Positions 4,532-30,371 of a DNA stretch of 33,349 nucleotides are shown here, in pieces. A program made the position numbers and the translations under genes. How positions within the stretch are numbered: position 1 is the first letter of the stretch; each line of letters starts with the position of its first letter. Source of the DNA: a virus; the IMG/VR virus record IMGVR_UViG_3300009164_002798, positions 1-33,349 of that record, one strand, 5' to 3'. A model generated the notes under the pieces. The model was not told the origin of the DNA. It did not search any database and saw only the letters and a list, made by a program, of their open reading frames with translations.

Positions 4532-5241
4532 AATTCTTTCATTTTTTCCATATCATAATATAAATTAGGATCTTCATCCGGACAAGGATTAAAATCACTT
4601 CTATTTATTTTAAATTCTTCTCCATTGATGATTCTGGTTAATAACTTAGCAAACACCAAATTATTTTCATCAGTGATGTGATTTTGTAATCTAAGTCTTT
4701 CTAAATACATACGATTATCTGGAATACCAAAATGCTTTCTTTCTTCAACGTTTACGTAATCAAGAAAGAATTCTAATCCGCTATACTTCATAATTTCTAT
4801 GTTCTTAGATTCACCTAATGACGGTAACATAATTAATTTTTTATCATTTTCAATTGATAATTTAACAATTTTTTCTATTAACGCTATATGAACAAAATTG
4901 TCGAATTTAGAATCTTGTAAATGCAAATAATATTGTATCGCCGCTTTAAATAATTCTTGTTCTTTATGCTGATACGGCTCGCAAGTTTTCAATCTATATT
5001 CTACCGAAGAGAGATTTGGAATTGCTTCTTCGTGGTATAGTCTACCTGGGGCAGTGACTAAAAATACTATAATATCAAAGTTCTTATAATTTTCTATAAA
5101 TTTTAAATAAGAATAAAATAAACTTGTTCCTCTTCTGGCAAAATTTTCAACTTGACATCTGTTCATTGTAGATAGCAATGAACCCCAACTTGTTAGACCA
5201 GTGCTGGCGGCATAGCTATCACCAAATATTGCTATTTTCAT
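4528..5241 (-). CDS. SGNH/GDSL hydrolase-like protein (SGNH1)
   Basis: This 237-residue protein has the GDS nucleophile motif at 7-9 (IFGDSY, Ser9), an ENFARRGTS stretch at 32-40 where family block II falls, and NHITDENN at 187-194 carrying the likely catalytic His188. SGNH enzymes hydrolyse or transfer acyl groups, often on glycans or lipids. It has no signal peptide, so it should work in the cytoplasm. It is clearly paralogous to the protein at 26889-27668: both begin M-x-IAI-x-GDS, and both have a [FL]LxTxxxRLY stretch and an H[IL][ST][DE]ENN end. It overlaps rSAM1 upstream and the SDR downstream by 4 bases each. Confidence 0.75.
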   Translation of the reverse strand: MKIAIFGDSYAASTGLTSWGSLLSTMNRCQVENFARRGTSLFYSYLKFIENYKNFDIIVFLVTAPGRLYHEEAIPNLSSVEYRLKTCEPYQHKEQELFKAAIQYYLHLQDSKFDNFVHIALIEKIVKLSIENDKKLIMLPSLGESKNIEIMKYSGLEFFLDYVNVEERKHFGIPDNRMYLERLRLQNHITDENNLVFAKLLTRIINGEEFKINRSDFNPCPDEDPNLYYDMEKMKEL

Positions 5242-6551
5242 TTAAACAATCTTGTATATTCAGGTACAATGTCTAGTATGCTATGCCCACGTGCATGATC
5301 TAGGTAGTTGGTAAACTTAACAAACTCTGGAAGTTTATCGCTAAAGTCTGCACCCAACATGTATTTTGTAATACTGTTTAAAATATTTTCTGCGTTCTTA
5401 GCAATATCTTCTGGATATTCTGCGTTGAACTCAGTGATACATTTAGCATAGTATTCAACAATCTGTTGTTTCATATCAGCAGGTAATACACGCACATTAA
5501 CACGCTTTGGGCCGTGAGCTACATGATGTGTAATGATGGGACGCTTCTTTGTGCTGTTAATCTTAGTAAATCCGCTACTGTTTAACTTCCACTTCATAAA
5601 ACGTGGTATGTGCCAAATATTATATGCTGTTACTGTACAAGCCAACCAAGCAAGTATGTTTGGATTCTTTTCTGCGTATTCATCTAACTTCTGTAAATTC
5701 TTGTATGCTTGATTCCACTTTAATGGCCAACGCTGATATTCAACTGTTTCGCCCATGCCATCCATACTGGCACCAACACGAACTTGCTTAAACTGTGTCC
5801 ACATATCTAATACACGGTTGGGCAAGTTACTCATATTGGTATTGTATTCAATAATCATCTTCTTACTATGACCTGCATCAATACATTTTTGTAGAAACTC
5901 GTAGTGACGTTCGATCATCATAGGCTCACCGCCTGCCATATAAACGTGCTTGATGTTTGGAATGTTTGCTTCTATCTGTGTCCAGAAACTTTCACTGTTA
6001 TGCCAGTCATAGTCTGTAGTAGACAATCTACCATTATCATTACGAGCTAATTTAACTGTTCCATGCGTATCTTTGTATTCATCACTGCCATGATATTCAG
6101 TCCATTGCTCGTACCAAGTATGACTATCAGTAGGGCCACACATGCGGCAAGCAAGATTACATAAGTTACCAAAACGCAGATCGTAGTATTCTAAGTTTCT
6201 GTCTTTGATACTACCATCTTCTTCTGTGATATAACGAGCATCATCGATGTTAAACTTCCAGTTTTCTAATTCATATTGTCTGCGACTATTAAGACCACTA
6301 GCTTCTTCTTGTTGACAACGTCCGCACTCTTGACTCCACTCACCTACTAACATGTTCTTGCGAACTTCTTTCATTAGTGTAGCATTACGGGCAGTTTCCA
6401 TATTGTCTCTACCAGCATTATACGGAGTTCCATCTTCGTGTCTAACAACACCTTGGTTATCCGTTACGTTGGCTTGACAACAAACTCGAATGTCTCCATT
6501 ATTGCGAACAGCCTGGAAGTTCCAAGGTATTGGGCAAAATGTATTACTCAT
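5238..6551 (-). CDS. Radical SAM protein with N-terminal twitch domain (rSAM1)
   Basis: This 437-residue protein fits the twitch-domain radical SAM group, in which an extra cysteine domain precedes the core. The N-terminal domain has Cys6 (FCPIPW), Cys24-Cys25, Cys76 and Cys79 (CGRC), suited to an auxiliary Fe-S cluster. CNLACRMC at 131-138 is the CxxxCxxC site for the catalytic [4Fe-4S] cluster, and AGGEP at 206-210 binds the SAM amino group. These enzymes cleave SAM to a 5'-deoxyadenosyl radical; the substrate of this group is unknown. Its closest relative in the window is rSAM9, and both are followed directly by an SGNH gene. It overlaps rSAM2 by 8 bases (ATGAGTAA). Confidence 0.9.
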   Translation of the reverse strand: MSNTFCPIPWNFQAVRNNGDIRVCCQANVTDNQGVVRHEDGTPYNAGRDNMETARNATLMKEVRKNMLVGEWSQECGRCQQEEASGLNSRRQYELENWKFNIDDARYITEEDGSIKDRNLEYYDLRFGNLCNLACRMCGPTDSHTWYEQWTEYHGSDEYKDTHGTVKLARNDNGRLSTTDYDWHNSESFWTQIEANIPNIKHVYMAGGEPMMIERHYEFLQKCIDAGHSKKMIIEYNTNMSNLPNRVLDMWTQFKQVRVGASMDGMGETVEYQRWPLKWNQAYKNLQKLDEYAEKNPNILAWLACTVTAYNIWHIPRFMKWKLNSSGFTKINSTKKRPIITHHVAHGPKRVNVRVLPADMKQQIVEYYAKCITEFNAEYPEDIAKNAENILNSITKYMLGADFSDKLPEFVKFTNYLDHARGHSILDIVPEYTRLFK

Positions 6552-7932
6552 TGATTCTTCCTTTATATTCTATCATATCCTCGAATTGTTTCCATAAGTC
6601 AGGTAAGTCTGTTCTAATATCTTGTTTTCTAATCTTGTCAAGATCCGCCGTGTATTGTATAAAAATCGTTATTTGTTCGCTGTTGCATTCTTCGTTAATC
6701 GAACCAATTACTTTGTTATACATAGTATTTAAATCTAATTCAGCTTCATGAATATCTTTTTCGTCAATTACATTTGATTTTAACTCTTCTAGTAAATTAT
6801 TTTTATGCGCTAATAATTTTTCTATATGAACTTTTTTAGAAAACAATGGAAATATTAAAGATGGCTTTAAAAACTTAGGATCGTGTACAATATTAACCAT
6901 ATAATTTTTACTATCCCACCATGGCTTACCTCTAAATTCTTGTTGTAAACCAAACCACCAATCAATCATAATATGAAAATGCCAAACATTATATATACTA
7001 ACGCATGGAACCCATTTTACTATATATTTTCTTGTTAAAAACGGTCCTTCTCCATTTGCTTCATAATACTTTCCTGTATATTGTTTTTCTAACTTTAACC
7101 ATTCACAAACAGACTCATTGACAGTAGACCATTCACTGGGATAACGTATATAGTCATTTACTTTACCTACACCGTCGACACTTAAATTAATATAAACTTT
7201 AAAAAATTGATCTAAACGTGTTAGAACTTTTTCTTTCGGAACCCAACTTGCATTAGTAAAAATGTCTAACGTTATTTGATCAGCCCTGCCTGACTGTATT
7301 AGAATATCTAAGATTTTAATAAAATTTGGATGTAGCATGGGCTCGCCGCCTGTGAACTTAATTTCTTCAATGCTAGAAAAATCTTCTATATTCCATTCTT
7401 TTTCTATATTATTAATTTTAGTTACTTTTCGTTCTTTGTAATAATTACTTAAAATAGCATCATCATCTTCCCAAGTAGTGCTCAAATCAGAGCCACATGT
7501 TCTGCATTTTAAATTACAATAATTACCCATGGTAATTTCTAAATATCTAATTTCTATAGAATTATCTTCTGGAGATGTTAAATTTTTATTGTTACGAGTC
7601 CAGTTTTCTTTTTCTCTAAGACTTTTAATTCTCCTACGAGGATTTTTGTAGTTGTTGTTAAATGCAAATTCTTCTTCTTGATAACATTTTCTGCATCCAG
7701 GAACTTTTTTATCCTTTAACATTGTTTCTCGAATTTCTTGCCATTCAGATGAGCCTAATGCAAAAGTAAATGAAGTATTTTCATCGTTAATATTAAATTT
7801 GTCAAATTTATAAGTTTTATCAGGTAATTGATAATCTACATGTTTGGTATCAAATCTGCAACAAGGTTTTATTTGTCCGTTGGGTTTAGTTTGTGCGTGT
7901 ATCCATGGCAGGACACAAAAAGTTTTACTCAT
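6544..7932 (-). CDS. Radical SAM protein with N-terminal twitch domain (rSAM2)
   Basis: I chose the ATG at 7932, giving 462 residues, because MSKTFCVLPW then aligns with the starts of rSAM1, 5 and 9 and the gene overlaps rSAM3 by the recurrent 8-base ATGAGTAA. A longer frame to 8001 adds 23 unrelated residues inside rSAM3. Twitch cysteines are 6, 24, 25, 80 and 83 (CRKC). The core has CNLKCRTC at 139-146 and GGEP at 195-198. It is most like the rSAM half of the 687-residue fusion (rSAM5): both share LSTTW after the cluster motif, IKFTGGEPM and a VNDY[IV]RY stretch. The reaction and substrate are unknown. Confidence 0.9.
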   Translation of the reverse strand: MSKTFCVLPWIHAQTKPNGQIKPCCRFDTKHVDYQLPDKTYKFDKFNINDENTSFTFALGSSEWQEIRETMLKDKKVPGCRKCYQEEEFAFNNNYKNPRRRIKSLREKENWTRNNKNLTSPEDNSIEIRYLEITMGNYCNLKCRTCGSDLSTTWEDDDAILSNYYKERKVTKINNIEKEWNIEDFSSIEEIKFTGGEPMLHPNFIKILDILIQSGRADQITLDIFTNASWVPKEKVLTRLDQFFKVYINLSVDGVGKVNDYIRYPSEWSTVNESVCEWLKLEKQYTGKYYEANGEGPFLTRKYIVKWVPCVSIYNVWHFHIMIDWWFGLQQEFRGKPWWDSKNYMVNIVHDPKFLKPSLIFPLFSKKVHIEKLLAHKNNLLEELKSNVIDEKDIHEAELDLNTMYNKVIGSINEECNSEQITIFIQYTADLDKIRKQDIRTDLPDLWKQFEDMIEYKGRINE

Positions 7933-9091
7933 AACTCTTGTCCCCAGGGAACAATGGCAACTTGGTGCCTGGCGCACGTTTTGGTATCTTACTGTCGGCA
8001 CTACTCACACAACTTGTTCCACCGCAGGGCATAGGCTTGTCGTACAACTTAAAGCCTGTTTCAATATGCCCTAATGGCACTTCGCTACAGCTATAACTAC
8101 GCTTTACGGTGCCATCTGGCTCACGAATAATAATACTGCGATAGCCACTGCTACATTCCCAGCCGTGAAAGTTGTTAAAGTTAAACGCATTAAAACGTTC
8201 TGCTTGGTCCATGAACCAGGGATTGCCATCTTTATCTACAAATTCAATTTGATAATGCGGATCAATATCCACTTGTTTCTTACGCTGAGTATCTGCTTTG
8301 TCAATCATAAATGTTGGCTTTGGGCGTTTGACTAGTCCAGACTTTAATGCCTTTTCTTCTGTGTAAGCACGTTGTGGCATACCATTGTGTAACTTAGCCA
8401 ACATCTCAGGTGTATACCCATCTACTACTCTGCTTGCGGTTGGATCGCTTTGTGGCTTGAGTGTTACGTTAATACCTCGGTTATGAAAGTATAAACTTAG
8501 ATCATATATCTCATTAAACTGCTCCGGAACCATGACCATGTTGATAGTTATCTGTGTGTCGTATTCTTGGCATAAGACTAGTTTGTCAGCAAACTCTTCT
8601 ACCTTCTTATCTGTATCAACGTGTTCACGATGGCAACTTGCTGTGATGCTAGCACGGTGGAAGTTCTTAACTGCTGGAACATATTGTTCTTCAAACCATT
8701 TAAGAGGGCGACTCATATTACTGGTCATGTGTACGCTGGTATAGTTTGTATTGGCAGCATCATCATTTAAATGATTAAGGATATCAATGTAAGCAGGATG
8801 GAATGTAGGCTCGCCGCCACTTAGACTAAAGTGGAAACTATTAAATCCGTTTTCTCTTGATTGACGTTTAATCTCATCTACTGTGTGTAGCATTAGTGGA
8901 GTAGGACGATGATCCTTTGTATCACTGCGAGCATAGGGCCAGCAATAGCTACAACGATAGTTACAGTAGCGTCCTAAGAGCCAAGATACAGTAAACATAT
9001 CGCGGTATAGCATTGTTCTCTGTCCAACTCTAACTAAGTCACTGTAAGGTATCTTAGTAAAGTCGTATTCACTGGTTTTTAAATCACTCAT
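7925..9091 (-). CDS. Radical SAM protein with C-terminal SPASM-like domain (rSAM3)
   Basis: This 388-residue protein has no N-terminal twitch domain. CNYRCSYC at 43-50 carries the catalytic cluster and SGGEPTFHP begins at 91. From about residue 310 (GWECSSG) there is a C-terminal cysteine domain with Cys313, 335, 356 and 361, suited to an auxiliary cluster. Its tail, about 25 residues after Cys361, is Pro/Lys/Gly-rich. The partner in the window is rSAM12, which has the same GWEC entry, spacing and NGGEP motif. SPASM-type enzymes often modify peptides or sugars. The DNA looks richer in G and C than neighbouring genes. It overlaps the 77-residue gene by 8 bases. Confidence 0.88.
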   Translation of the reverse strand: MSDLKTSEYDFTKIPYSDLVRVGQRTMLYRDMFTVSWLLGRYCNYRCSYCWPYARSDTKDHRPTPLMLHTVDEIKRQSRENGFNSFHFSLSGGEPTFHPAYIDILNHLNDDAANTNYTSVHMTSNMSRPLKWFEEQYVPAVKNFHRASITASCHREHVDTDKKVEEFADKLVLCQEYDTQITINMVMVPEQFNEIYDLSLYFHNRGINVTLKPQSDPTASRVVDGYTPEMLAKLHNGMPQRAYTEEKALKSGLVKRPKPTFMIDKADTQRKKQVDIDPHYQIEFVDKDGNPWFMDQAERFNAFNFNNFHGWECSSGYRSIIIREPDGTVKRSYSCSEVPLGHIETGFKLYDKPMPCGGTSCVSSADSKIPKRAPGTKLPLFPGDKSYE

Positions 9092-9317
9092 TTTGTTCGT
9101 ATATAAATTTTATTTCTTTACCTGGTCCGACTTCACTGGGCAAGCCGCCATATTCTTTTACATACCAAGTTATAGCAGCCTTGTACCATCCGGTACTATC
9201 GTGTCTGCTTTCCTTGTTAAACTTGTATATGTTATCGTTAGTAGCTTCCATACTACTGATAATTCTGGCAGCTTCTAATTGTAGCATTCTTAAAGGCATA
9301 TTGTCAATATCAATCAT
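9084..9317 (-). CDS. Small unknown protein, 77 residues, between two radical SAM genes
   Basis: I do not recognise this protein. It is soluble, has no cysteine, and consists of an N-terminal helix-like part (RMLQLEAARIISSMEATNDN), then a TGWYKAAITWYVKEYGG segment at about 42-58, ending in PGKEIKFIYEQNE. It overlaps rSAM4 upstream (ATGA) and rSAM3 downstream (ATGAGTGA), so it is made together with both. A small protein in this place could be an accessory or recognition subunit, or a peptide substrate. The lack of Cys, of a repeated core and of a clear leader boundary makes the substrate idea weak. Confidence 0.65.
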   Translation of the reverse strand: MIDIDNMPLRMLQLEAARIISSMEATNDNIYKFNKESRHDSTGWYKAAITWYVKEYGGLPSEVGPGKEIKFIYEQNE

Positions 9318-10519
9318 AGGTCTAAATTATTCATCAATCTAATTAATTTGTCAGTTTTCTTTACTGCTTGTTTACGCACCAAAAAATCTTCGGCTATTTG
9401 TTTGTAATCAGGATTATATGCTGCCGCTAGTCGTTGCTTCATTGTGTCGATGAATGTTATAAAATTCTCTTTGAAAACATGTTTGGTATTACCTGCTTCT
9501 TTTAGTATAGCCTGTTCTGCCAGTTCTATATATTTAATATATTCTATCGGCAAATGTGAGATATCCATTTCATCTGGCCAACTGACAAAGTTACCGTACC
9601 ATGTGAATTCTTTTTCTGGAGCATATAATTTGAATTGTTCGTAGACCCATGTAATATACAAGTGAAAACTTTTCAAATTAAAAATATTAATAGTGGGGCT
9701 CATTACAATTAATTCAGTTTTGGGATGTTGAATATATCTTTTAAAGTTTTCTCCGAAACGTTGCCAATCTAAACCATGGCGAAGACCTTCAGCATCTTCG
9801 CCAAACGCTTCATTACTAACTCCGATACCCCATGTTAGTTTACTGGTATCCATTCTAGTAATAACTTTGTCCATTAAGAATTTTTTACTATTAGCATTAG
9901 TACATATTTCAAGTCTAATCTTTTTATCAGTTAATTTAGCTACATCTTCAATGTAATCTACCAACTCATAGAAACGTTCACTGGCTGTGGGTTCGCCACC
10001 TAAAAAGATAAAAATCAATTGAGTAGCAGTGACATCTTCTCGTAATATATAATTTTTAATCCAAGACTTGAAAATAATATAATCATCTTCTTTTGTAGAA
10101 TCCCTAACAGGCAATCCTTCCTCTTGAGCAATTTTACTACTGCTATTTGGACTACAATATAGGCAAGCCAAATCACATGTACTATCTGTTTTAATTTCTA
10201 TATAATGAACAAACTTATCATCGTCATTGACTTTGATTTGATTGTCTTTGAGAAAAATATTATCCCATCTATTGGCCCAATCTCTGTATGCCGAGTTTCC
10301 TTTAGTATAGTCATCCCAACATGCATTACAATCACTGTGCGCGATGTTCTCCAAGCTTTGCTGCCTGCGCTCTTTAATTACATCACTTAGACTAATAAAT
10401 TGTTCTGTTAATTTTTCTGGAAAACTATGTCCTTTTGCTTTACAGCAATGGCGTAGAGTTCTTGATTCGAAATCAATGTTTATATCAGTCCAGCTTTTGG
10501 AGCAGTAAGTTGTATTCAT
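9314..10519 (-). CDS. Radical SAM protein with N-terminal twitch domain (rSAM4)
   Basis: In this 401-residue protein the N-terminal domain has Cys6, Cys25-Cys26, and CNAC at 64-67 followed by W. The core has CDLACLYC at 115-122 (Asp instead of the common Asn after the first Cys) and LGGEP at 173-177. Its best match in the window is rSAM13, which shares the CC-K and C-x-x-C-W spacing, a G-L-x-W-x-x-F-x-x-N-F-K stretch and a TIN segment about 15 residues after it. It starts three bases after the nitroreductase-like gene and overlaps the small gene downstream by ATGA. The reaction is unknown. Confidence 0.88.
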   Translation of the reverse strand: MNTTYCSKSWTDINIDFESRTLRHCCKAKGHSFPEKLTEQFISLSDVIKERRQQSLENIAHSDCNACWDDYTKGNSAYRDWANRWDNIFLKDNQIKVNDDDKFVHYIEIKTDSTCDLACLYCSPNSSSKIAQEEGLPVRDSTKEDDYIIFKSWIKNYILREDVTATQLIFIFLGGEPTASERFYELVDYIEDVAKLTDKKIRLEICTNANSKKFLMDKVITRMDTSKLTWGIGVSNEAFGEDAEGLRHGLDWQRFGENFKRYIQHPKTELIVMSPTINIFNLKSFHLYITWVYEQFKLYAPEKEFTWYGNFVSWPDEMDISHLPIEYIKYIELAEQAILKEAGNTKHVFKENFITFIDTMKQRLAAAYNPDYKQIAEDFLVRKQAVKKTDKLIRLMNNLDL

Positions 10520-10522
10520 ATG

Positions 10523-11266
10523 TTATATGTTAACTATCATTGTTTCTTGTTTTTTATTAATAAAGAAACTTTCTTCTCTACCACTGCGTTTATAATGAGT
10601 CTCACCGTCTAAATATTCTTCTTCTATAGACGAATCTATACCAGCATATATATCTAGAATCTTTTGTTCCTTGGGTCCGATACAAACAGCAACGATTGCT
10701 TCAATTGGCTGTGATTTAAAATCGCTGCCAAACTCTTTGGCCAATAAGCTAGTAAATCTATCATTAAATAAAACATCTTCCATACCACAGGCAACAAATG
10801 CTGTTCCGTATCCCAAATCTTCCGCTGTTAGTTGTGCGTATGTTGCGCTAATCATTGCGTCACGAACTGAGCCTTTGACCATGACATAACGATCAGCTTC
10901 ACTTTTGACTTCACTATAAACTCTGTCGTATACTTCTGTGCCATTGTTTTCTTTAATATCAACCATTTGATGCTCGGGGGCTGGATTAGTTACGTAAAGT
11001 AAAACTAAAGGTGCTTTGGTTTGTAACAGATAAACTTGTTGTCCTTTATCACCTTCACATGAAGTAATGTGATCACACAATTCTAATTTTAGTTGTTTAC
11101 CCAAATCTGATTCCGTTAATGCAAAAACTTTGTAACCATAAATTTTGTTTTTACTAGGAGCACGTCTGGCGCTATCCAAAATTGTTTGTATATCATTTTC
11201 ATCTATACTATTTTTCATTAAACGAGTAGTATGTCTCGCCTTGATTAATTTATTAACTGTTGACAT
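10523..11266 (-). CDS. Nitroreductase-like flavoprotein
   Basis: This 247-residue protein looks like a nitroreductase-family FMN protein. ARHTTRLM at 9-16 is the N-terminal phosphate-binding segment, ILDSARRAPS at about 29-38 is a typical family stretch, and AEDLGYGTAFVACG near 148-161 matches the helix-strand seen in most members. The family uses NAD(P)H to reduce diverse substrates, but some members are dehydrogenases or dehalogenases. It is the first gene of operon A, with an AAGGA ribosome site and a divergent promoter region upstream. Being in one operon with four radical SAM enzymes, it could supply a redox step of the same pathway or electrons to them; both are guesses. Confidence 0.75.
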   Translation of the reverse strand: MSTVNKLIKARHTTRLMKNSIDENDIQTILDSARRAPSKNKIYGYKVFALTESDLGKQLKLELCDHITSCEGDKGQQVYLLQTKAPLVLLYVTNPAPEHQMVDIKENNGTEVYDRVYSEVKSEADRYVMVKGSVRDAMISATYAQLTAEDLGYGTAFVACGMEDVLFNDRFTSLLAKEFGSDFKSQPIEAIVAVCIGPKEQKILDIYAGIDSSIEEEYLDGETHYKRSGREESFFINKKQETMIVNI

Positions 11267-11327
11267 TGTGGATCCTTAAATATTAAATGCTCTGATAAAT
11301 ATTTAGTAAATATAACCTGGATAAATT
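11267..11327. promoter_or_regulatory. Divergent promoter region between operon A and the + strand island
   Basis: This 61-base spacer must hold start signals in both directions. On the + strand, TTGACA at 11260-11265 (inside the first codons of the opposite gene) and TTAAAT at 11283-11288 have 17-base spacing, a plausible sigma70 promoter with a 4/6 -10 box. GATAAATA at 11294-11301 is one base off the T4-type late motif. On the - strand an AAGGA ribosome site precedes the ATG at 11266, but I see no clear -35/-10 pair. Confidence 0.45.
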
Positions 11328-12065
11328 ATGACCGAGCACCTAAATGACTATGGTATCAGTAATGAACCTATAGATAGCTTTTCAAAAAGAAATAGCTACC
11401 CTGCATCTTGCAAATACCCTCAGAATTTAGAAATACCTAGAGATGTCAATATGAATTCTACCATTCCATTTTTACCAATCGACGACTGGAAAGACACTGA
11501 AGATTGGACAGAAATGCATAGAGAAGCGAAGGCATTAGAAAAGCATTTTGTTCCTCACAGACATCATGAAAGTCACAGCGGATGGAGCAGTTTGTGTATA
11601 CACGGTATCACTAGTGTTCACACTGAAAGCCCGCATACATATGGATACACCGACGACAATTGCCCCTGGAGATGGACCGATGTCGCTGATGTATGTCCGA
11701 CTATTACTAAATTTTTTAAAGATAAATTTGACTATAACAAGTATTTTAGAGTTAGAATTATGAAACTTGCACCCGGGGGATATATAATTCCACATCGCGA
11801 TACGTTGGATATTAATCAAAGCCATATTGGTCCTGTTAATCTAGCATTAAATCACCCCGAAAATTGCAAGTTTTACATGGATGATATTGGTATGTTGCCA
11901 TGGACAGCCGGGCGAGCTATCAAATTAAACTTATACAATGTTCATGCTGTAGTTAATCACAGTAATGAGGATAGGTATCATATCATTGTTCACGGTCATA
12001 TGGGCCCCAGTTGGAATGACCGTATATATCAAAATTATTTAAATTGGAAAACTGTATATGCGTAA
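11328..12065 (+). CDS. Aspartyl/asparaginyl beta-hydroxylase-like Fe(II)/2OG dioxygenase
   Basis: This 245-residue protein shows a double-stranded beta-helix iron site: His156 and Asp158 in IIPHRD (HxD), then His206 in NVHAVVNHS, followed by Arg216 in the EDRYHIIVHG strand, which should bind 2-oxoglutarate. This HxD...H...R layout and the H-A-V-x-N-x-S-x-x-x-R-x-H pattern fit the aspartyl/asparaginyl beta-hydroxylase family. Substrates in phages are unknown; peptide side chains or a small molecule are possible. It opens the only + strand operon inside the rSAM region and overlaps the next gene by 8 bases (ATGCGTAA). Confidence 0.82.
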   Translation: MTEHLNDYGISNEPIDSFSKRNSYPASCKYPQNLEIPRDVNMNSTIPFLPIDDWKDTEDWTEMHREAKALEKHFVPHRHHESHSGWSSLCIHGITSVHTESPHTYGYTDDNCPWRWTDVADVCPTITKFFKDKFDYNKYFRVRIMKLAPGGYIIPHRDTLDINQSHIGPVNLALNHPENCKFYMDDIGMLPWTAGRAIKLNLYNVHAVVNHSNEDRYHIIVHGHMGPSWNDRIYQNYLNWKTVYA

Positions 12066-13524: not shown

Positions 13525-13525
13525 A

Positions 13526-20610: not shown

Positions 20611-20614
20611 GATA

Positions 20615-22763: not shown

Positions 22764-22784
22764 ATTATTATTTACTCGTATATT

Positions 22785-23087
22785 TTATATATTATTTTTA
22801 TCTGCTCTATTTAATGCACTATCTGGATTTTCTGTACCACAAACCTTTAAACAAGTCTTAAACGGATCATCAGTTACCCAGCTTTGTTCTACTACAGCAT
22901 ACGCAGATTCAATTTGGTCTTGTGGATATGTGATAAACGCATGATCAAATTTGTCTCCCATGAATTCTTTTAGTGCTTCGTAGCGATTCTTGTCAGTGAC
23001 TAACCAACAACACGGGGTTACTAGTCCTGTAAATTCTATAAAGGCACCAGGAAATTTTTTACAGTAAGGATTTATTTTTGTAGTCAT
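22785..23087 (-). CDS. C-terminal Cys domain of split radical SAM protein (rSAM10, second part)
   Basis: A 100-residue frame holding only the C-terminal cysteine domain seen in rSAM8, 11 and 14: Cys9, Cys26-27 (TPCC) and CLKVC at 79-83. Alone it lacks the catalytic cluster site. It starts with an ATG at 23087 that lies within the end of the first part and has no good ribosome site. Either it is a separate small auxiliary-cluster protein, or the two parts are one gene joined by frameshifting, or the gene is broken. Confidence 0.7.
   Translation of the reverse strand: MTTKINPYCKKFPGAFIEFTGLVTPCCWLVTDKNRYEALKEFMGDKFDHAFITYPQDQIESAYAVVEQSWVTDDPFKTCLKVCGTENPDSALNRADKNNI
23059..23087 (-). other. 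Frame junction in rSAM10 (A-rich shift site)
   Basis: On the - strand the first frame reads AAT GAC TAC AAA AAT AAA TCC before its TAA. Dropping one A within the A-rich stretch at about 23071-23079 joins it to the second frame as ...DYKN-NPYCKK, which aligns with the same region of rSAM8 and rSAM14. It fits a one-base insertion, a +1 shift site or a sequencing error. Confidence 0.6.
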
Positions 23088-23730
23088 TGAATTCTTTTTC
23101 TATTTCATTGAATGGTTTAGTGGTTGCCAACCAGGTATTTTCGTTGGTTTCATCTACTAGACTATGCTGTAGGAAAAATAAATCAAACCCCATAGTTTTA
23201 CTTAGCTCATAACTTGATTTAATTGTATCTTGATTATAAGAAAATACCAAGTGTTTCCAATATATTTTTGGACCTGCGCCAAGTTGTTTTTTGTATTCGA
23301 TACAGGTTCTAGCCGCGTTGCTCACATCATCCCATTTAGCGTTTATTCTATATTGGTTAAAATTATCGGGTGTGCCATCTATGCTGAATATTAATGTGTC
23401 GTTGGTATTCATCGACGACATCAATGATTGCCACCATTCAGTGCTTTTGCCACTGCCATTGGTATGTATCATGATTACTAAATTAGCATCATTGTTCTTC
23501 AGTGACTGAATCAAACCCACAAGATCTTTTGAATATATTGGATCTCCCCAATTGCCACAAAATAATATTCTCTCAGGCTTAGCATCTATTAAGAACTTTT
23601 TAAAGTATTCAGTGTCTAGATCAAACATACTTTGAATGTATCTACCACCTACGCTAGTTCTTGCACATTCAGGACATAACAGTCTACATCTGTTAGTTAA
23701 GCCCACATGTAAATCTTTAAAATTAAACAT
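23059..23730 (-). CDS. Radical SAM core of split protein (rSAM10, first part)
   Basis: The ATG at 23730 (TAAGGT ribosome site, one base after the rSAM11 stop) gives 223 residues; a longer frame from a TTG at 23754 is less likely. CRLLCPEC at 15-22 carries the catalytic cluster. The SAM-binding motif is CGNWGDP (GDP at 62-64), the variant of this subgroup. The frame ends at a TAA (23059-23061) just where its relatives continue into a C-terminal cysteine domain. That domain is found in the next frame, 29 bases overlapping. Together the two parts match the length of full relatives (about 350 residues) apart from some loop loss. Confidence 0.75.
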   Translation of the reverse strand: MFNFKDLHVGLTNRCRLLCPECARTSVGGRYIQSMFDLDTEYFKKFLIDAKPERILFCGNWGDPIYSKDLVGLIQSLKNNDANLVIMIHTNGSGKSTEWWQSLMSSMNTNDTLIFSIDGTPDNFNQYRINAKWDDVSNAARTCIEYKKQLGAGPKIYWKHLVFSYNQDTIKSSYELSKTMGFDLFFLQHSLVDETNENTWLATTKPFNEIEKEFNDYKNKSLL

Positions 23731-23731
23731 A

Positions 23732-24796
23732 TTAAAGTACCTTATAATTTCCAATTGGAAGTTTTTCTAAATTCTTAACACTACAAACTTCTGTGCAACG
23801 ATAAATTCTATCTTCTTTACCAAACCCATGTTCGGTTGATTTCCAACTTGCCACTAAATCATTGACATAAAATTCATGTTTCAATATATCACTTATACTG
23901 TTTTCACTGATATCATTCCATTTATCTGATCCATAAACTTCGTACAAACGTTTGAGTAGTATATCCATTTTACCTTGATCATTTGTAATCAAACCATTTT
24001 GCATAAAACAGCAGGGCCATAGTTTGCTGTCAAAACTAATAAAGTACATTTTCTTTTCTTTATTATTACAACATATATCGTTGTTTACTGTGTTTTTTAA
24101 GTTGTTATTAATATCAATCAATGATGACACTGGTATATGCCTATCTGCTATAGCGTTTTTACGCTGTTGCACTACATCCAAGCCCAATGATGTAATCAAA
24201 CTTCTATCATGTCTGCTGGCAAATTGACAAAAACCCATGTTAACACTGAGTTCTTTAGCCTGAGTTATTTGATGCTCATTCCATGGAAATATCAAATATT
24301 GCCAAAACGCTCTACCGCCTTCATTGATAAAAGTTTCTGCATTTTCCATGATCTTAGACCATGTGGTGTTTTGCCTATACAAATGGTTGGTGTCTTCTAA
24401 ACCATCAATGCTGAATTTAAGCATATGATTATAATTCTTTTTTAACACAGCGGCTAATTTTTTCCAATATGCTACATTACGCAAACTGGCATTTGTATGT
24501 ATTATGATGTTATATCTACCAACTGTGCTGGCAAAATCTAAGAACTCTAGAAATTCAGGATGCATCAGCGGATCGTCGATTGTTCCGCAAAACTCTAATT
24601 CTTCTACAGTAGCAAACTCTGGTGCAGTTAAAATCTTTTTAAATACATCAAATGAAATATATTGTTTGTCTGGAATTGAAAACTTCTTATTTAAAAACGT
24701 TCTGGCATCAGTTCTAACACAACCTAAACAAAGAGCATTACACATTGAACTTAGTTCAAATTGAAGTTTTGTTGGGCCTGTTAAATAATTATTCAT
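23732..24796 (-). CDS. Radical SAM protein of the GDP-motif group with C-terminal Cys domain (rSAM11)
   Basis: In this 354-residue protein CNALCLGC at 19-26 is the cluster motif and CGTIDDPLMHP (DDP at 74-76) stands where GGEP is expected. The C-terminal domain has Cys242-243, Cys262-263 (WPCC) and CTEVC at 334-338. A stretch near residue 135, DGLEDTNHLYRQ, is identical in rSAM14, and the flanking 50 residues are also very similar, so these two separated recently or are under strong constraint. It overlaps rSAM12 by ATGA. Substrate unknown. Confidence 0.87.
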   Translation of the reverse strand: MNNYLTGPTKLQFELSSMCNALCLGCVRTDARTFLNKKFSIPDKQYISFDVFKKILTAPEFATVEELEFCGTIDDPLMHPEFLEFLDFASTVGRYNIIIHTNASLRNVAYWKKLAAVLKKNYNHMLKFSIDGLEDTNHLYRQNTTWSKIMENAETFINEGGRAFWQYLIFPWNEHQITQAKELSVNMGFCQFASRHDRSLITSLGLDVVQQRKNAIADRHIPVSSLIDINNNLKNTVNNDICCNNKEKKMYFISFDSKLWPCCFMQNGLITNDQGKMDILLKRLYEVYGSDKWNDISENSISDILKHEFYVNDLVASWKSTEHGFGKEDRIYRCTEVCSVKNLEKLPIGNYKVL

Positions 24797-25743
24797 ATTT
24801 TTACCTTAGGTATCAATACGTCATTGGTACAGGTGCAATATTTAATTGTACATATCTCAGGAACTAACGCTGGCAATCCTTTAAAATCAATGATGTTACC
24901 AATTAGTTCGGCTTGGTTACAAGCACTTTTTCTAATATTTCCATAAGCATCAAGTAAGATGTGATTGATACCCATTGTACATTCCCAACCAGTGAAAGTG
25001 TTCTTTAAATTATTAACATACTCAACTTCATCTAGATGCTCGACATGTCCATTGTCAAATTCTATAGAATTTTCTCCATAATAGTTATTTTCTGGTGGGG
25101 GGAATCCTGTTCCTTTAATTCCTAATCCACTATTAGCTTCTAACCATGCCAATTGTTCATTATTATATTCGTAGCTGGCATCACTTTGCTGACTTTCTCG
25201 TTTAAACACTCTACTAGGTTCTAATGTAATATCTTTAAAAGTTTTGAATCTCTCAAAAGCATCCTGTGATTTAGACCACAGTGGCGGATACATAAGTGTA
25301 AATACTCCTACATTTGTTTGTGTGCCAATGTATTCGACTTTTTCGAATATACTGTCATCTACACTTTCTGGATGGTAACTGATAGTTACTTTGTAAATTT
25401 TTTTAGCATAATCTTTCCACCAATCTAAGCTTCGGCTGCCATTTGTGTTAACATATAAACACCAACCCTTTTCATTACAAAACTCAATGATTGTTTCTAG
25501 ACTAGGACTAATTGTAGGCTCGCCACCATTTAAAAAGATGTGTACGCTACGGCCGTGTAATTGTTCTGCTAATTTAATTAGAAAATCTTTTATAATTTTC
25601 GGATCTTCTAATTTATTTTTTAGAACATTTACTCCACGATGCAACAATTCAGGGCAGTAACTACAGTGATAAGTGCAAAGACTATTAATAGTCCAGTCCA
25701 AGACGAATCGATTGACTTCATTGTATATTTTAATAGGGTTCAT
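24793..25743 (-). CDS. Radical SAM protein with C-terminal SPASM-like domain (rSAM12)
   Basis: The ATG at 25743 gives 316 residues and a 14-base overlap with rSAM13; a TTG two codons upstream is unlikely. CTYHCSYC at 23-30 and NGGEPTISP from 72 form the core. A cysteine domain begins at about 252 with GWECTMG (Cys255, 275, 298, 303, 305). The C-Y-C variant, GWEC entry and order match rSAM3, although this protein is shorter by about 70 residues. It lacks an N-terminal twitch domain. Function unknown; related SPASM enzymes act on peptides or sugars. Confidence 0.87.
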   Translation of the reverse strand: MNPIKIYNEVNRFVLDWTINSLCTYHCSYCPELLHRGVNVLKNKLEDPKIIKDFLIKLAEQLHGRSVHIFLNGGEPTISPSLETIIEFCNEKGWCLYVNTNGSRSLDWWKDYAKKIYKVTISYHPESVDDSIFEKVEYIGTQTNVGVFTLMYPPLWSKSQDAFERFKTFKDITLEPSRVFKRESQQSDASYEYNNEQLAWLEANSGLGIKGTGFPPPENNYYGENSIEFDNGHVEHLDEVEYVNNLKNTFTGWECTMGINHILLDAYGNIRKSACNQAELIGNIIDFKGLPALVPEICTIKYCTCTNDVLIPKVKI

Positions 25744-26902
25744 TATCAAACCATTCTATGTATTCTGGAAAAACTGTTCTCCAGTTCGTATTTCTAATTG
25801 AGTCTATGTTAGTTATTGCTTTTCTAAACAATTTAGCATTAGATGTATCATTGGAAATATTAAATTTTAAATTACTATACCAACCGTTGATAAATTTATG
25901 ACCCACATTACTAGACTTGACATATTCTTCTAACTTAGTTAGTTCTGGTAGAAATCTATGATCTAATATCTCTGTTCTAAAAAACTTTTGATGCGGATAA
26001 TTGTAATCAAACTTTATATTGTAAGATGAAAAGAATTTAACAAAGTCAACTATATTTACTATGCTAAACGGATTTATTGTTAATCTGATGTTATGTTGAT
26101 CTGATTTTGAATTATGTATTTTGAAATTATCGACGAAATTACTCCAAACCAATCCTCCCCTAACATATTCAGCACGTTCTTCTAAATTTTCTACGCTAGT
26201 AGTTATTAGTAATTTAAGATTATATTTGGACTTTAATTCTTTTACCATTTCATAAAAATGAAGTAAATTATGAATATCAACATTTGTGTTCGTTGATATC
26301 GACATTCGTACTGATCTATCTTTGTCTTTTTCACAAAATGTTTGTAATATTGTTTTGATATTTTCATTGAAATTGTCAACAATAAATGGTTCTCCACCAG
26401 TGAGGCCAATCTCCATCACCTTCACTGAGCTAGGGATAGAATCGACGAATTGTATAATATGTTCAAAATTTATTACTGGGTCTATTTTTTCTTTAGCCCA
26501 AGAGAATATTTCTCCAGTATCATTTTTTACCCAGCTACCGTATCTAGCAATAGAACTGCTTAACGTATAAGTGCAATAGTAACAAGTTTGATTGCATAGC
26601 GAGCTGGTTTGTAAATTTAAGTTTATAATGGTAGATGGTATTTGGCGACTAGTTCTCCAGCTAGCTTTTCCGGCTGCCTCTAAATCCCAACAATCTTTAC
26701 ATCTGGCAGTTTTAATTCCCTGTGATAATTCTGTTCTTGCTTTTATTGTTTCAGTGTTATTGCTAAAATAGTTAAAGCCTAATTCTTTTACTTCATTGAT
26801 GTTTAACTGTATGGGTTCAAATTTGCAACAGTGACTCATTTCCCCGCTGATCAGATTTATATCGTAAGAGTTATATAATTCATTGCATTTAATCGCTGCC
26901 AT
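25730..26902 (-). CDS. Radical SAM protein with N-terminal twitch domain (rSAM13)
   Basis: I prefer the ATG at 26902 (390 residues) because GGAAAG lies just upstream and the overlap with SGNH3 becomes the recurrent 14 bases. The ATG at 26923 adds seven residues. The twitch region has Cys6, Cys25-26 and CKDCW at 68-72. The core has CNQTCYYC at 103-110 and TGGEP at 168-172. The N-terminal aromatic/Pro motif seen in other twitch proteins (FCxxPW) is absent: Cys6 is followed by NELY. It is most like rSAM4. This gene is notably AT-rich. Confidence 0.86.
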   Translation of the reverse strand: MAAIKCNELYNSYDINLISGEMSHCCKFEPIQLNINEVKELGFNYFSNNTETIKARTELSQGIKTARCKDCWDLEAAGKASWRTSRQIPSTIINLNLQTSSLCNQTCYYCTYTLSSSIARYGSWVKNDTGEIFSWAKEKIDPVINFEHIIQFVDSIPSSVKVMEIGLTGGEPFIVDNFNENIKTILQTFCEKDKDRSVRMSISTNTNVDIHNLLHFYEMVKELKSKYNLKLLITTSVENLEERAEYVRGGLVWSNFVDNFKIHNSKSDQHNIRLTINPFSIVNIVDFVKFFSSYNIKFDYNYPHQKFFRTEILDHRFLPELTKLEEYVKSSNVGHKFINGWYSNLKFNISNDTSNAKLFRKAITNIDSIRNTNWRTVFPEYIEWFDNEPY

Positions 26903-27668
26903 GGATATCTTTCCATTTGACATAATACTCTATGTCTTTACTGGGCACAACAAAATCTGACAACATCAACGGTAATTCAAATCTGTTATTTTCTATTGTA
27001 TCTATTATTTTATTAGCTAGTATCATATTGTTTTCTTCTGATAAATGACACTTGCGATAGTCAGTGAAGTATTTATCGTCTTTTATGTGACCAAAATTAA
27101 TGTCATTATTTTTATATTTTTCTACAAAACCTAGACTATGCTGTTCCATAAATTGAACTTCTATTAGACTAGTCTCATCGCCAATATCTTCAACTGAATC
27201 GTTGAAACAATTAATAAAAATTGTATTGTTAGTAGATCTCTTAAGTTTGTCAAGCAATGCATAGTGAAATTCTTTTTCTACTTCGTAGTCTTTCCAATAA
27301 GCATAGTATGTTACCAGACTAGAATAAACATTTTTTAACAACTCGTAATTCTCAGGAGGGAATTTTTCATTACGCATTTGAAATGTCAATAGAGATGATA
27401 AGTTATTATAGCCCGCTCTAGACACATTTTCTTCTAAGAATTTAGAATATAATCTATGTGTTTCTGTAATTAAAAATATGTTTACATCGTATTTGTCATG
27501 ATGTTCTTGGAACTTTTTGTAACTCCAATAAAAGCTAGTACCTTGTGCGGCATAATTAGTAACTGTATTATATTTTTCTTTAACTACATCAACCCAAGCA
27601 GGGCCTTGAATATCTCTAGACTCAATTTCATATGAAGCAAAGCTGTCGCCATATATTGCTATTCTCAT
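26889..27668 (-). CDS. SGNH/GDSL hydrolase-like protein (SGNH3)
   Basis: This 259-residue protein is paralogous to SGNH1 over its length. IYGDSF at 5-10 has the nucleophile Ser9, TNYAAQGTSFYWSY at 37-50 fits block II, and CHLSEENN at 207-214 holds the probable catalytic His208. It has no signal peptide or membrane segment, so it should act on a cytoplasmic substrate. It overlaps the stop of rSAM14 upstream as ATGA and the start of rSAM13 downstream. An acyl hydrolase or O-acyltransferase role in the same pathway is likely but not shown. Confidence 0.75.
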   Translation of the reverse strand: MRIAIYGDSFASYEIESRDIQGPAWVDVVKEKYNTVTNYAAQGTSFYWSYKKFQEHHDKYDVNIFLITETHRLYSKFLEENVSRAGYNNLSSLLTFQMRNEKFPPENYELLKNVYSSLVTYYAYWKDYEVEKEFHYALLDKLKRSTNNTIFINCFNDSVEDIGDETSLIEVQFMEQHSLGFVEKYKNNDINFGHIKDDKYFTDYRKCHLSEENNMILANKIIDTIENNRFELPLMLSDFVVPSKDIEYYVKWKDIHGSD

Positions 27669-28840
27669 TTAAACTGTTCCTCAAATGCATCATGTGTAGT
27701 GCCGCAAGTCTTGGCACATACTGCCAGTTTTCCTTCGGCACAGCTATTTTTATTCCAGCTATTAGGGATAATTTCCTGCATAAATTTACCTTCAACAACA
27801 TGCTTAATGCTATGTTGTTTCAAGTCAAGTGAATCTAAGCCAGCTTCATTGATAGCGTTCCATATTTGACCGCCCTTAGCTTTCCAATACCAAACATACA
27901 TTTGACCAGCTGTCCAACAACACGGTTGTAAATATCCTTCAGCTGTGACATAAATGCTTTTCTCTTCTGCTACTTTACATTTGATAGGTACAGTGTCCCA
28001 ATACTTTTCCATGGGCTTTTTCTTTTCTGGATCAGCGGTAAATTTTTGAGCACCAACTCGACCTTTTAATCCATTTACTGTAGTTATGAGATCATTTGGG
28101 TTTGTATTATCCTGTCTTTTAGCAATGTTTTCTAAATCTTTAATAGCGGCATTATGATATTTTGGATCAGTGGGCATTGTCAACAACGTAGTAGCAACTC
28201 CTTTGCGATTGCCAGCCTGATGGTCTTGTTTAACTTCGCCGCGAGTATTACTAAAAAATCTATTACTCTTTTTAATGTTAAACTTTTCAAAGCCCATCTT
28301 AGTTGCTAATGTCTGTGCTTCTTCTACTTGATGTTCATTGTGTGCAAATACAATATAGTCCCAACGTGCTCTGCCGCCCGCATCTATAAATGCCTGAGCA
28401 TTTTCCATTATCTTAGTCCACACAGTTCCTTGACGATATAAATGATTAGTGTCTTCTAATCCATCTACGCCAAATATAACGTAACCTTTTTTTCCTATTA
28501 CACCCGCAAGCTTGGCCCACCATTCAGGCTTTTTCATACTGCCATTTGTATGCATACTAAGATTAAGGCTTGAGTTATGTTCTCTAAAATAAGCAAACGC
28601 TTCTAATGTATCTGCAGCTACGGCGGGATCACCATAGTTGCCGCACATATACAATCTGTTTAACTGTTTAATAAACTCTACAGGGAATATGTGTTTAATG
28701 TCAGCAATGCCGAGTTCTGCGCCGTGTAACAATGGGCTTACTTCGCCCCCATTTAAATTCCTAGCACACATAGGACAAGAGGCATTACATGCTTCTGTCA
28801 TTTCTAAATGCACAGTGGTAATATCACTGTAATTATACAT
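27665..28840 (-). CDS. Radical SAM protein of the GDP-motif group with C-terminal Cys domain (rSAM14)
   Basis: At 391 residues this is the longest of its subgroup. CNASCPMC at 18-25 is the cluster motif, followed by CGNYGDP with GDP at 70-72 instead of GGEP. The C-terminal domain has Cys288, Cys307-308 (QPCC), Cys367 and CAKTC at 375-379. About 35 extra residues between core and C-terminal domain, compared with rSAM8 and 11, are rich in Lys, Asn and Asp. It starts one base into the methyltransferase stop codon (TAATG) and overlaps SGNH3 by ATGA, making it the first rSAM of operon B. Confidence 0.87.
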   Translation of the reverse strand: MYNYSDITTVHLEMTEACNASCPMCARNLNGGEVSPLLHGAELGIADIKHIFPVEFIKQLNRLYMCGNYGDPAVAADTLEAFAYFREHNSSLNLSMHTNGSMKKPEWWAKLAGVIGKKGYVIFGVDGLEDTNHLYRQGTVWTKIMENAQAFIDAGGRARWDYIVFAHNEHQVEEAQTLATKMGFEKFNIKKSNRFFSNTRGEVKQDHQAGNRKGVATTLLTMPTDPKYHNAAIKDLENIAKRQDNTNPNDLITTVNGLKGRVGAQKFTADPEKKKPMEKYWDTVPIKCKVAEEKSIYVTAEGYLQPCCWTAGQMYVWYWKAKGGQIWNAINEAGLDSLDLKQHSIKHVVEGKFMQEIIPNSWNKNSCAEGKLAVCAKTCGTTHDAFEEQFK

Positions 28841-30370: not shown

Positions 30371-30371
30371 A

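Follow-up and report, generated by a model that had tools for sequence, protein, structure and literature searches.

Fourteen radical SAM genes in a phage island with a core shared with Bdellovibrionota: a possible tail-linked glycoconjugate pathway

We analysed a 33,349-nucleotide stretch of viral DNA (IMG/VR record IMGVR_UViG_3300009164_002798, positions 1 to 33,349; hereafter the window) and found fourteen radical SAM (rSAM) genes between positions 5238 and 28840. Six genes, encoding the rSAM enzymes R9, R14, R3 and R1, a GT-A-like protein (GT) and the methyltransferase-fold protein X285, form a core that recurs in other phages and in bacterial chromosomes. We tentatively favour the reading that the island encodes a tail-linked glycoconjugate pathway in which the rSAM enzymes would remodel sugars. 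New here are the conserved core, its bacterial counterpart, a split enzyme and the recurrent position of the island.

Gene content and integrity of the island

The window matched part of a 127,886-base (~128 kb) contig with 99.93% identity across all 33,349 bases, and this parent contig carries baseplate wedge and hub genes (PHROGs), which bears out the phage origin given in an earlier note on this DNA. Because of these baseplate genes we take the parent phage to be probably T4-like; the island lies downstream of the tail genes, in a region that varies. No tRNA was found in the window, and a near-DNA search with positions 3977–24900 against phage records gave no match. The fourteen rSAM genes counted in the earlier note were recovered: 14 of the 36 ORFs read carried CxxxCxxC (R1–R9, R10a and R11–R14 in the list below). 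Bits are for NF033640, the 'twitch domain-containing radical SAM protein' model (N_Twi_rSAM; cut-off 170 bits).

3977–4531, −: SDR-like small protein, by eye; no Pfam family; cluster in 15 of 81 loci including the window
4528–5241, −: SGNH-like protein 1, by eye; no Pfam or PHROG match
5238–6551, −: R1, N-twitch rSAM enzyme; NF033640 385 bits; dN/dS 0.03
6544–8001, −: R2, N-twitch rSAM enzyme; NF033640 272 bits; judged by eye, translation probably starts at an internal Met around residue 24
7925–9091, −: R3, rSAM enzyme; rSAM matches below cut-offs; 58–64% identity to Bdellovibrionota proteins
9084–9317, −: X77, small protein conserved among phage loci; 30 of 81 loci; no Pfam match
9314–10519, −: R4, N-twitch rSAM enzyme; NF033640 170.5 bits against the cut-off of 170
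10523–11266, −: nitroreductase-family protein; PF00881
11328–12065, +: aspartyl/asparaginyl hydroxylase-like oxygenase (ASPH); PF05118
12058–13524, +: X488; no Pfam or PHROG match; usually beside ASPH
13526–15589, +: R5, N-twitch rSAM enzyme with an N-terminal extension of ~230 residues; NF033640 239 bits at residues 231–672
15552–16808, −: R6, N-twitch rSAM enzyme; NF033640 321 bits
16805–18115, −: R7, N-twitch rSAM enzyme; NF033640 235 bits
18112–19182, −: R8, rSAM enzyme with C-terminal SPASM-like Cys (alignment); TIGR04317 2.4e-14, below cut-off
19157–19789, −: methyltransferase; PF13578
19786–20610, −: 2OG-oxygenase-like protein, by eye; no Pfam match; directly before R8 in 15 adjacencies
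20615–21370, −: SGNH-like protein 2, by eye; only DUF6071 at 16.8 bits, under the cut-off of 27
21357–22763, −: R9, N-twitch rSAM enzyme, core member; NF033640 420 bits
22785–23087, −: R10b, separate SPASM-like Cys domain; start-overlapping partner of R10a
23059–23754, −: R10a, rSAM core of the split enzyme; rSAM matches; split in 16 of 16 loci
23732–24796, −: R11, rSAM enzyme with SPASM-like C-terminus; NF033640 core match 8.6e-15, below cut-off; no Pfam match
24793–25749, −: R12, rSAM enzyme with STM4011-like core; below cut-offs
25730–26923, −: R13, N-twitch-like rSAM enzyme; NF033640 153.7 bits, under 170
26889–27668, −: SGNH-like protein 3, by eye; no Pfam match
27665–28840, −: R14, rSAM enzyme with SPASM-like C-terminus, core member; in 73 of 81 loci
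28840–29697, −: X285, class I SAM-dependent methyltransferase fold, core member; model pLDDT 92.4
29684–30397, −: GT1, GT-A-like protein, aligned with GT2
30372–31397, −: GT2, GT-A-like protein; fold search with a model of pLDDT 85.5
31369–32118, −: GT3, GT-A-like protein, aligned with GT2
32143–33349, −: Nol/NodU-type carbamoyltransferase; PF02543, PF16861, phrog_1601; cut by the window end, 490 residues in the parent contig

Each of the fourteen proteins had NCBIfam rSAM models among its matches at E≤1e-3. Seven passed the NF033640 cut-off (R1, R2, R4, R5, R6, R7 and R9), R13 fell narrowly short of it, and the remaining six had NCBIfam matches only below cut-offs. At E≤0.001, PF04055 matched the window 12 times, 10 over the cut-off and 2 under; among proteins scanned singly with Pfam, R1, R4, R10a and R13 were under that cut-off and R11 gave no match, so the assignment of these five rests on the motif and NCBIfam, with matches below the NCBIfam cut-offs for R10a and R11. 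Alignment of eight twitch-type paralogues showed seven invariant cysteine residues, including the three of CxxxCxxC. Motif and profile matches thus place all fourteen in the radical SAM superfamily. No protein of the fourteen passed the model cut-off of any known metabolic rSAM enzyme, and a profile search against the PDB returned as solved relatives only NifB for R14 and the peptide maturase SkfB for R9, both weakly. Five of ten proteins scanned matched prokaryotic viperin models weakly, which would favour an antiviral, viperin-like or counter-defence role, but these matches cover the shared rSAM core and reached at most 43 bits for NF038283 against a cut-off of 180; we therefore rejected prokaryotic viperin identity. 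We know of no viperin layout with fourteen different enzymes and GTs, and consider such a role very improbable.

Where measurable, the rSAM genes are under purifying selection, with dN/dS of 0.025–0.17 in 12 of 15 ORFs (the fourteen and R10b), values that are rough because dS approached or exceeded 1 in every pair measured. A value was unobtainable for R7, which lacked an orthologue in the loci, and for R10a and R13, which were saturated. The earlier note had called all but one of the genes intact; intactness stood, and the supposed broken exception, R10a with R10b, proved to be a conserved split. The 16 loci with R10a, which include the window and its near-copy L010, all had the split, with a partner ORF containing CC and CxxxC that started inside the R10a end or one base after it. 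Nine different junctions were seen rather than 16 because some loci are near-copies. The overlap contained an A-run of 5–7 in six loci (the window, L010, L013, L015, L016 and L022), where slippage may yield a fused R10 protein; the longest run was 0–4 in the other ten. The longer partner of R10a was itself divided in two in L074 and L077. The split arrangement was also present in Bdellovibrionota islands and in the genome of the cultured pelagiphage Mosig.

The tailoring enzymes read beside the rSAM genes in the earlier note fared unequally: the nitroreductase, Asp/Arg hydroxylase, methyltransferase and carbamoyltransferase were supported by Pfam, whereas the 'SDR', the three 'SGNH', the second '2OG' and the three GT-like proteins had no Pfam match over cut-off. 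Fourteen of the 15 members of the two X488 clusters adjoin ASPH. On the parent contig, within ~26 kb of the fourteen genes, Pfam identified an FkbM methyltransferase fused to a dTDP-4-dehydrorhamnose epimerase, an NAD epimerase, a UDP-glucose dehydrogenase, a cytidylyltransferase and a transketolase domain; a SAM synthetase gene, present in 7 of 20 records, lies within the same distance. The earlier note was supported in its finding of many intact rSAM genes amid tailoring enzymes in a phage, and the parent contig adds the sugar-nucleotide genes.

Recurrence in phages and comparison with known systems

Relatives were encoded in 443 stretches of viral contigs, and all 20 chosen longer records had 8–19 rSAM matches each. 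The genes co-occurred rather than being found singly: at least five rSAM types were present in 56 of 80 loci, or 33 of 80 when 30% identity was required. At least five types together with the carbamoyltransferase, the combination proposed as a test in the earlier note, were found in 11 of 80 stretches (9 of 80 at 30% identity), lower bounds for stretches of at most 21 kb. Over the 80 loci the carbamoyltransferase preceded GT3 in 27 adjacencies, GT3 preceded GT2 in 30, GT2 preceded GT1 in 33, GT1 preceded X285 in 24 and X285 preceded R14 in 24, giving a recurrent order of carbamoyltransferase, three GT-A-like proteins, methyltransferase-fold protein and then R14. In 17 of 18 records, R9 lay on the same strand as, and 14–40 kb downstream of, the homologue of one virion structural gene; the exception was G010, in which R9 was 96.8 kb away on the other side of that gene. 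In G014 the virion-gene match was short.

The earlier note knew of no described system with this many paralogues, a claim not supported by comparison with excerpts of published phage descriptions. For Campylobacter phages CP220 and CPt10, 11 and 12 rSAM proteins have been reported, of which five belong to an exchangeable cluster (PMC2853527), the 183 kb T4-like genome TARA_ERS488813_N000010 has 12 rSAM genes (PMC5332604), and pelagimyophages carry rSAM cassettes in a host recognition cluster (PMC7029224). Phage modules rich in rSAM genes have thus been published before, and the pathway can be called undescribed only with respect to its product.

CP220 and CPt10 resemble the window in being distantly T4-like, with an exchangeable rSAM cluster and a baseplate gene nearby (excerpts of PMC2853527). 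As in phages of this kind, at least five rSAM genes are clustered here, namely 14 in 24 kb, and in cultured CP220 the rSAM genes accompany two proteins of nucleotide-sugar-transferase fold near the baseplate gene. However, the CP220 match to R14 had only 28% identity over 47% of the length, and searches with R9 and GT2 gave no CP220 match. CP220 also has a putative glycine amidinotransferase, whereas a scan of 26 of the 36 window ORFs gave no such match; with Pfam, the CP220 gene itself matched only below cut-off and a bacterial candidate gave no match.

Like the present island, the pelagimyophage host recognition cluster, in the parts of its description used here, has next to tail genes a set encoding rSAM enzymes, a carbamoyltransferase, hydroxylases, a nitroreductase and a methyltransferase (PMC7029224). 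Between the tail fibre genes and VrlC of Mosig we found a carbamoyltransferase, an X285-like protein, the split rSAM, Asp hydroxylases, a nitroreductase and an ArnB-like aminotransferase; unlike the window, the stretch read had three genes annotated as MoaA-like and no GT-profile match. The pelagimyophage cluster lies between tail genes and VrlC, and the present island downstream of virion structural and baseplate genes. The large virion gene of the parent contig was tried as a VrlC counterpart, and BLASTP against Mosig VrlC gave no meaningful match (best E 1.8). Among Vibrio phages K566 and K567, cultured K566 (255 kb) is similar in having five twitch-type rSAM ORFs in 41 kb, four of them within 7 kb, but had no GT, X285 or X77 profile match in the 41 kb read. 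The GT profile found nothing in the regions of K566, Mosig and CP220.

The Tara phage, likened by its partial description, is a marine T4-like phage of similar rSAM gene number, although its rSAM genes were interpreted there as Fe-S metabolism (PMC5332604). Such auxiliary metabolism, in which the enzymes would aid host iron–sulphur or low-oxygen metabolism during infection, has been proposed for rSAM-rich phages (excerpts of PMC2853527 and PMC5332604). We judge it improbable for this island: an A-type Fe-S carrier (PF01521) occurred in only 3 of 20 rSAM-rich records, which may be fragments, the cut-offs for known metabolic rSAM models were passed by none of the fourteen, and the recurrent order with GTs and the place downstream of tail genes fit it poorly.

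The counterpart in Bdellovibrionota

Homologues of R9, R14, R3, R1, GT and X285 occurred together in three of five large Bdellovibrionota chromosomal contigs; R9 had 54–63% identity to its Bdellovibrionota homologues and R3 58–64% to proteins of all five contigs. These NF033640-rich islands share with the window the core genes, the ASPH–X488 pair and the split rSAM, but they are chromosomal and have an extra B12-type rSAM and SIS and QueC-like genes. In an R9 tree with R1 as the outgroup, the Bdellovibrionota sequences branched before the main phage clade (support 100/99) and four divergent phage rows fell elsewhere. This early branching may suggest transfer from bacteria to phages, but the outgroup branch is very long. 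A quick R3 tree placed nine bacterial rows on one side of a single branch (100), which fits either direction. Short contigs labelled Neisseriaceae, Planctomycetota and Rickettsiales and a 161 kb contig labelled Chloroflexi (L097, L099, L108 and L110) grouped with or beside phages and may be misbinned phage contigs.

The bacterial core also bears on DNA or nucleotide hypermodification, in which rSAM enzymes, carbamoyltransferase and GTs would build a modified base against restriction. Carbamoyltransferases and rSAM enzymes take part in known phage DNA modification, and the parent contig has a QueE-like gene ~20 kb from R1. Presence of the same core in bacterial chromosomes and its location by tail genes in phages argue the other way, as does, weakly because the records are fragments, the absence of PF00303 (thymidylate synthase/dCMP-hydroxymethylase) in 17 of 20 records. 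We hold this explanation to be slightly less probable even than auxiliary metabolism.

A putative glycoconjugate pathway

The GT2 model had a GT-A-like fold (Z up to 11.1, 141 residues, 3.0 Å to B4GALNT1), and the Asp pair D86 and D88 was invariant in an alignment of 27 sequences. Because nucleotidyltransferases, also among the fold matches, share this fold, it is not in itself proof of glycosyl transfer; GT1–GT3 are putative glycosyltransferases. For the X285 model, a fold search gave 460 PDB matches at E≤0.001, and the best 50 of the 460 were all SAM-dependent transferases of the class I methyltransferase fold. GT and X285 profiles matched no PDB sequence, and tblastn with GT2 gave no match in 50,697 phage records.

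The main rival is maturation of a peptide or protein: rSAM/SPASM-type enzymes would modify a phage protein (a tail fibre or X77), with GTs, hydroxylase and methyltransferases adding further marks, as in RiPPs. SPASM/twitch enzymes often act on peptides, SkfB is the only, weak PDB match of the R9 profile, glycocin S-glycosyltransferases are among the weak fold matches of GT2, and X77 lies directly before R14 in 15 adjacencies. However, alignment showed that conservation extends along the entire X77 sequence and leaves no variable core, which does not support X77 as a RiPP precursor, and X77 had no match in the 12 Bdellovibrionota loci searched, although the rSAM core is there. X77 and R10b are the only small ORFs inside the island, and the largest gap between the chosen ORFs is 61 bases, leaving little room for hidden peptide genes. 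Peptide maturation would also leave the nearby sugar-nucleotide enzymes unexplained, and we regard it as rather unlikely.

The glycoconjugate reading is preferred because of the recurrent operon head, the GT2 fold, the nearby sugar-nucleotide genes, the position of R9 and the parallels in Mosig and CP220; the narrow gaps and low dN/dS were also counted for it. Counted against it were the sharing of the GT-A fold with nucleotidyltransferases, the weakness of the NifB and SkfB relatives, the lack of a flippase or polymerase in a Pfam scan of 26 of the 36 window ORFs, the failed VrlC match, the empty GT-profile searches, G010 and the short virion-gene match in G014. The sugar substrate, order of steps, destination and effect that we infer would be as follows. 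GT1–GT3 probably assemble or transfer a sugar unit from nucleotide sugars, and the phage also carries genes for several enzymes of nucleotide-sugar synthesis. The recurrent rSAM core (R14, R9, R1 and R3) and the methyltransferase-like X285 would remodel this unit by C–H chemistry, and exchangeable cassettes of other rSAM enzymes, hydroxylases, carbamoyltransferases and methyltransferases would vary the product. The glycoconjugate would most likely end on virion fibres or the host envelope and alter adsorption or exclusion.

A wider proposal, which we consider rather unlikely, is that a so far undescribed class of glycoconjugate, made by serial rSAM steps on a GT-made scaffold, is common to phages and Bdellovibrionota. 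Its six-gene core would have been exchanged long ago between predatory bacteria and tailed phages. In phages the core would have been placed downstream of tail genes so that its product coats virions or host surfaces, and the rSAM cassettes would be the unit of diversification.

Phage rSAM-rich modules have been in print since 2010 without a product. A recurrent core common to bacterial chromosomes and diverse phages, downstream of tail genes, allows what was a collection of paralogues to be tested as a pathway. If this core does make a new virion or envelope decoration, it would be an unusual case of viruses with genes for much of a natural-product-like pathway, and a large untapped set of radical enzymes.

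Radical SAM genes and layout of the island

The array of fourteen radical SAM (rSAM) genes that the earlier note had described proved to be real: CxxxCxxC was found in 14 of the 36 ORFs read in the window, and all 14 (R1–R14, 5238–28840) matched NCBIfam rSAM models. Seven passed the NF033640 cut-off and one more nearly did so, SPASM-like C-terminal cysteine residues were present in four (18112, 23059 with 22785, 23732 and 27665), and those at 7925 and 24793 had weak viperin/STM4011-like matches under the cut-offs. Alignment of eight twitch-type paralogues revealed seven invariant cysteine residues, including the catalytic three and a CxxC pair. PF04055 by itself matched twelve places in the window, ten of them above its cut-off, and when the proteins were scanned singly five of the 14 rSAMs fell under that cut-off or had no match.

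The island is a single packed unit, in which adjacent ORFs overlap by 1–77 bases or are spaced by ≤24; the sole wider gap, of 61 bases, is divergent and lies at 11,266–11,328. One unit is inverted within it:

11,328–15,589, + strand: ASPH (Asp/Asn hydroxylase-like), X488 (a protein without known family) and R5

ASPH adjoins X488 in 14 of the 15 members of X488's two phage clusters, and the two are also paired in the Bdellovibrionota islands L123, L129 and L131. R5 carries an N-terminal extension of ~230 residues (13526–14215), with no assigned family, ahead of its rSAM part. The 77-residue protein X77 (9084–9317), kept in 30 of 81 phage loci and often immediately ahead of R14, has an H-x-S that never varies and, at its C-terminal end, a conserved LPSxxGPG motif; it matches no known family.

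All 33,349 bases of the window, a virus record, match bases 44,513–77,861 of a 127,886-base viral contig, G001, at 99.93% identity. The PHROG label of 595–1815, 'HNH endonuclease', looks wrong, whereas Pfam gives a DUF2201 metallopeptidase/VWA-like protein; directly upstream of it G001 has an AAA-ATPase-like ORF (by eye).

The split enzyme R10 and selection on the island

R10a (the rSAM core) and R10b (a Cys-rich SPASM-like part) are two distinct, overlapping ORFs at 22785–23754. In all 16 loci having R10a, the window included, R10a runs for 211–241 residues before its stop, and the partner ORF, which contains CC and CxxxC, begins inside the R10a end or one base beyond. As this arrangement is kept in 16/16 loci through nine distinct junctions, we rejected R10a as a 'broken' gene, and the supposed exception to the earlier note's 'all but one intact' is a conserved split. 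Pelagibacter phage Mosig, whose genome is complete, has the same split, and it is also seen in Bdellovibrionota. From these sequences, R10a and R10b apparently form a natural two-subunit rSAM enzyme. Six of the 16 loci, the window among them, have an A-run of 5–7 within the overlap (only 0–4 in the remaining ten), and so may yield an additional slipped, fused R10a–R10b product.

Inactivation of most members, which the same note had named as the finding that would speak against its proposal, goes against the data: dN/dS was 0.025–0.174 in 12 of 15 ORFs (the 14 plus R10b), values that are approximate because every measured pair had a dS close to 1 or higher. The reference was the closest orthologue of <97% identity within the loci; R7 (no orthologue there), R10a and R13 (both saturated) were omitted.

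Relatives in phages and Bdellovibrionota

An R9 and R1 profile matched at least 597 viral-contig stretches, 443 of which encode a relative; the best 80 of the 443 were retained as loci of ≤21 kb, and the ORFs of these loci plus the window, 1,554 in all, were clustered. R9 is in 81/81 loci by construction. The other island members recurred as follows.

Occurrence of ORF clusters in the 81 loci (window included)
R14: 73
GT1/GT3 (GT-A-like proteins): 68
X285 (methyltransferase-fold protein): 56
R1: 48
GT2 (GT-A-like protein): 39
R11: 38
CARB (carbamoyltransferase): 31
R3: 29

At 30% identity, R9 and R14 co-occur in 72 of 80 loci; 68 loci also have a GT, 26 have a GT plus X285, and 15 have R1 besides. 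Adjacent-pair counts gave a recurrent head, CARB–GT3–GT2–GT1–X285–R14. A mannosyltransferase was the only PDB entry that the GT2 model (pLDDT 85.5) matched at E≤0.001; re-alignment to human B4GALNT1 gave Z 11.1 over 141 residues at 3.0 Å, in a list of GT-A enzymes and nucleotidyltransferases. The X285 model (pLDDT 92.4) had 460 matches at E≤0.001, all 50 of those listed being SAM-dependent transferases of class I fold. Both models indicate fold class only.

For whole-record searches, 20 of the 80 records were picked by eye for length (56–383 kb, not strictly the longest). Each had 8–19 PF04055 matches; PF04055 also matched every one of the 14 bacterial and archaeal controls, and therefore count and clustering are informative rather than mere presence. 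A-type Fe-S carriers and PF00303 enzymes were each found in three of the 20. SAM synthetase was present in 7/20 versus 135/50,697 phage records (tblastn), mostly of Streptococcus phages, although the searches are not strictly comparable.

A single genome scan gave 25 loci. Five large contigs (L098, L100, L102, L103 and L105; 103–937 kb) of Bdellovibrionota-type genomes, L102 being labelled only 'bacterium' and drawn with the phylum of G022, carry R9 at 62–63%, R3 at 58–64% and GT homologues; R14 (42–47%) and X285 homologues are each in four and R1 (39–49%) in three. All six occur together in L098, L103 and L105. Nine such genomes had 9–25 NF033640 matches each at E≤1e-10, a threshold also reached in five of 14 controls, none above cut-off. 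When 114 genomes of the G022 phylum were sampled, 30 had matches above cut-off and 84 lacked them, against 0/14 controls. One Bdellovibrionota chromosome has 13 above-cut-off twitch-type rSAM genes in ~30 kb (L122, L123; G022:C1 745–775 kb), and islands L126 and L127 add B12-type rSAM and QueC-like PP-loop proteins.

Exchange between phages and Bdellovibrionota looks old and rare, since few branches separate their main lineages in the R9 and R3 trees. Rooting the R9 tree on R1 suggests the direction from bacteria to phage, but the very long outgroup branch calls for caution. R9 genes on contigs L097, L099, L108 and L110, whose labels are Neisseriaceae, Planctomycetota, Rickettsiales and Chloroflexi, group with or beside phage R9; these contigs may be misbinned phage DNA within public genomes.

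Genomic setting and proposed product

In G001, the large gene block that comes next encodes a 2,844-residue virion structural protein (phrog_10938), baseplate wedge and baseplate hub. The large virion gene was matched in 18 of the 20 chosen records, from near-completely to short and weak, always on the same strand as R9, which lies 14–40 kb downstream in 17; in the exception, G010, R9 is 96.8 kb away on the other side. G016 and G017 share the same distance and are probably near-copies. Further Pfam matches on G001 were SAM synthetase, cytochrome P450 (C-terminal part only), acyl transferase, cytidylyltransferase, a transketolase domain, NAD epimerase, an FkbM methyltransferase fused to dTDP-4-dehydrorhamnose epimerase, UDP-glucose dehydrogenase and two more rSAM proteins, one just below cut-off. 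The SAM synthetase and P450-like protein are encoded at L091:9373–10473 and L091:14307–15494.

Four features combined point to a glycoconjugate as the most likely product: the GT-like operon head, the deoxysugar and nucleotide-sugar enzymes nearby, the carbamoyl- and methyltransferases, and the site downstream of tail genes. The rSAM steps would remodel this glycoconjugate, which would sit on fibres or the host surface. The main rival is peptide maturation by the rSAM enzymes: peptides are often the substrates of SPASM-type enzymes, and SkfB is R9's only solved relative by profile.

Earlier reports give 11 rSAM proteins for CP220 and 12 for CPt10 (PMC2853527), 12 rSAM genes for a T4-like Tara genome (PMC5332604), rSAM cassettes within the host recognition cluster of pelagimyophages (PMC7029224) and rSAM enrichment in Tasman Sea viromes (PMC7150976); further background literature is PMC9301287, PMC3322345 and PMC12398825. 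The literature search, with most subscription papers and bioRxiv preprints outside its scope, found no account of the core or its bacterial counterpart. The rSAM island is real, intact and widespread, and is an enlarged variant of a kind of phage module already reported but unexplained; its core pathway is now defined and testable.
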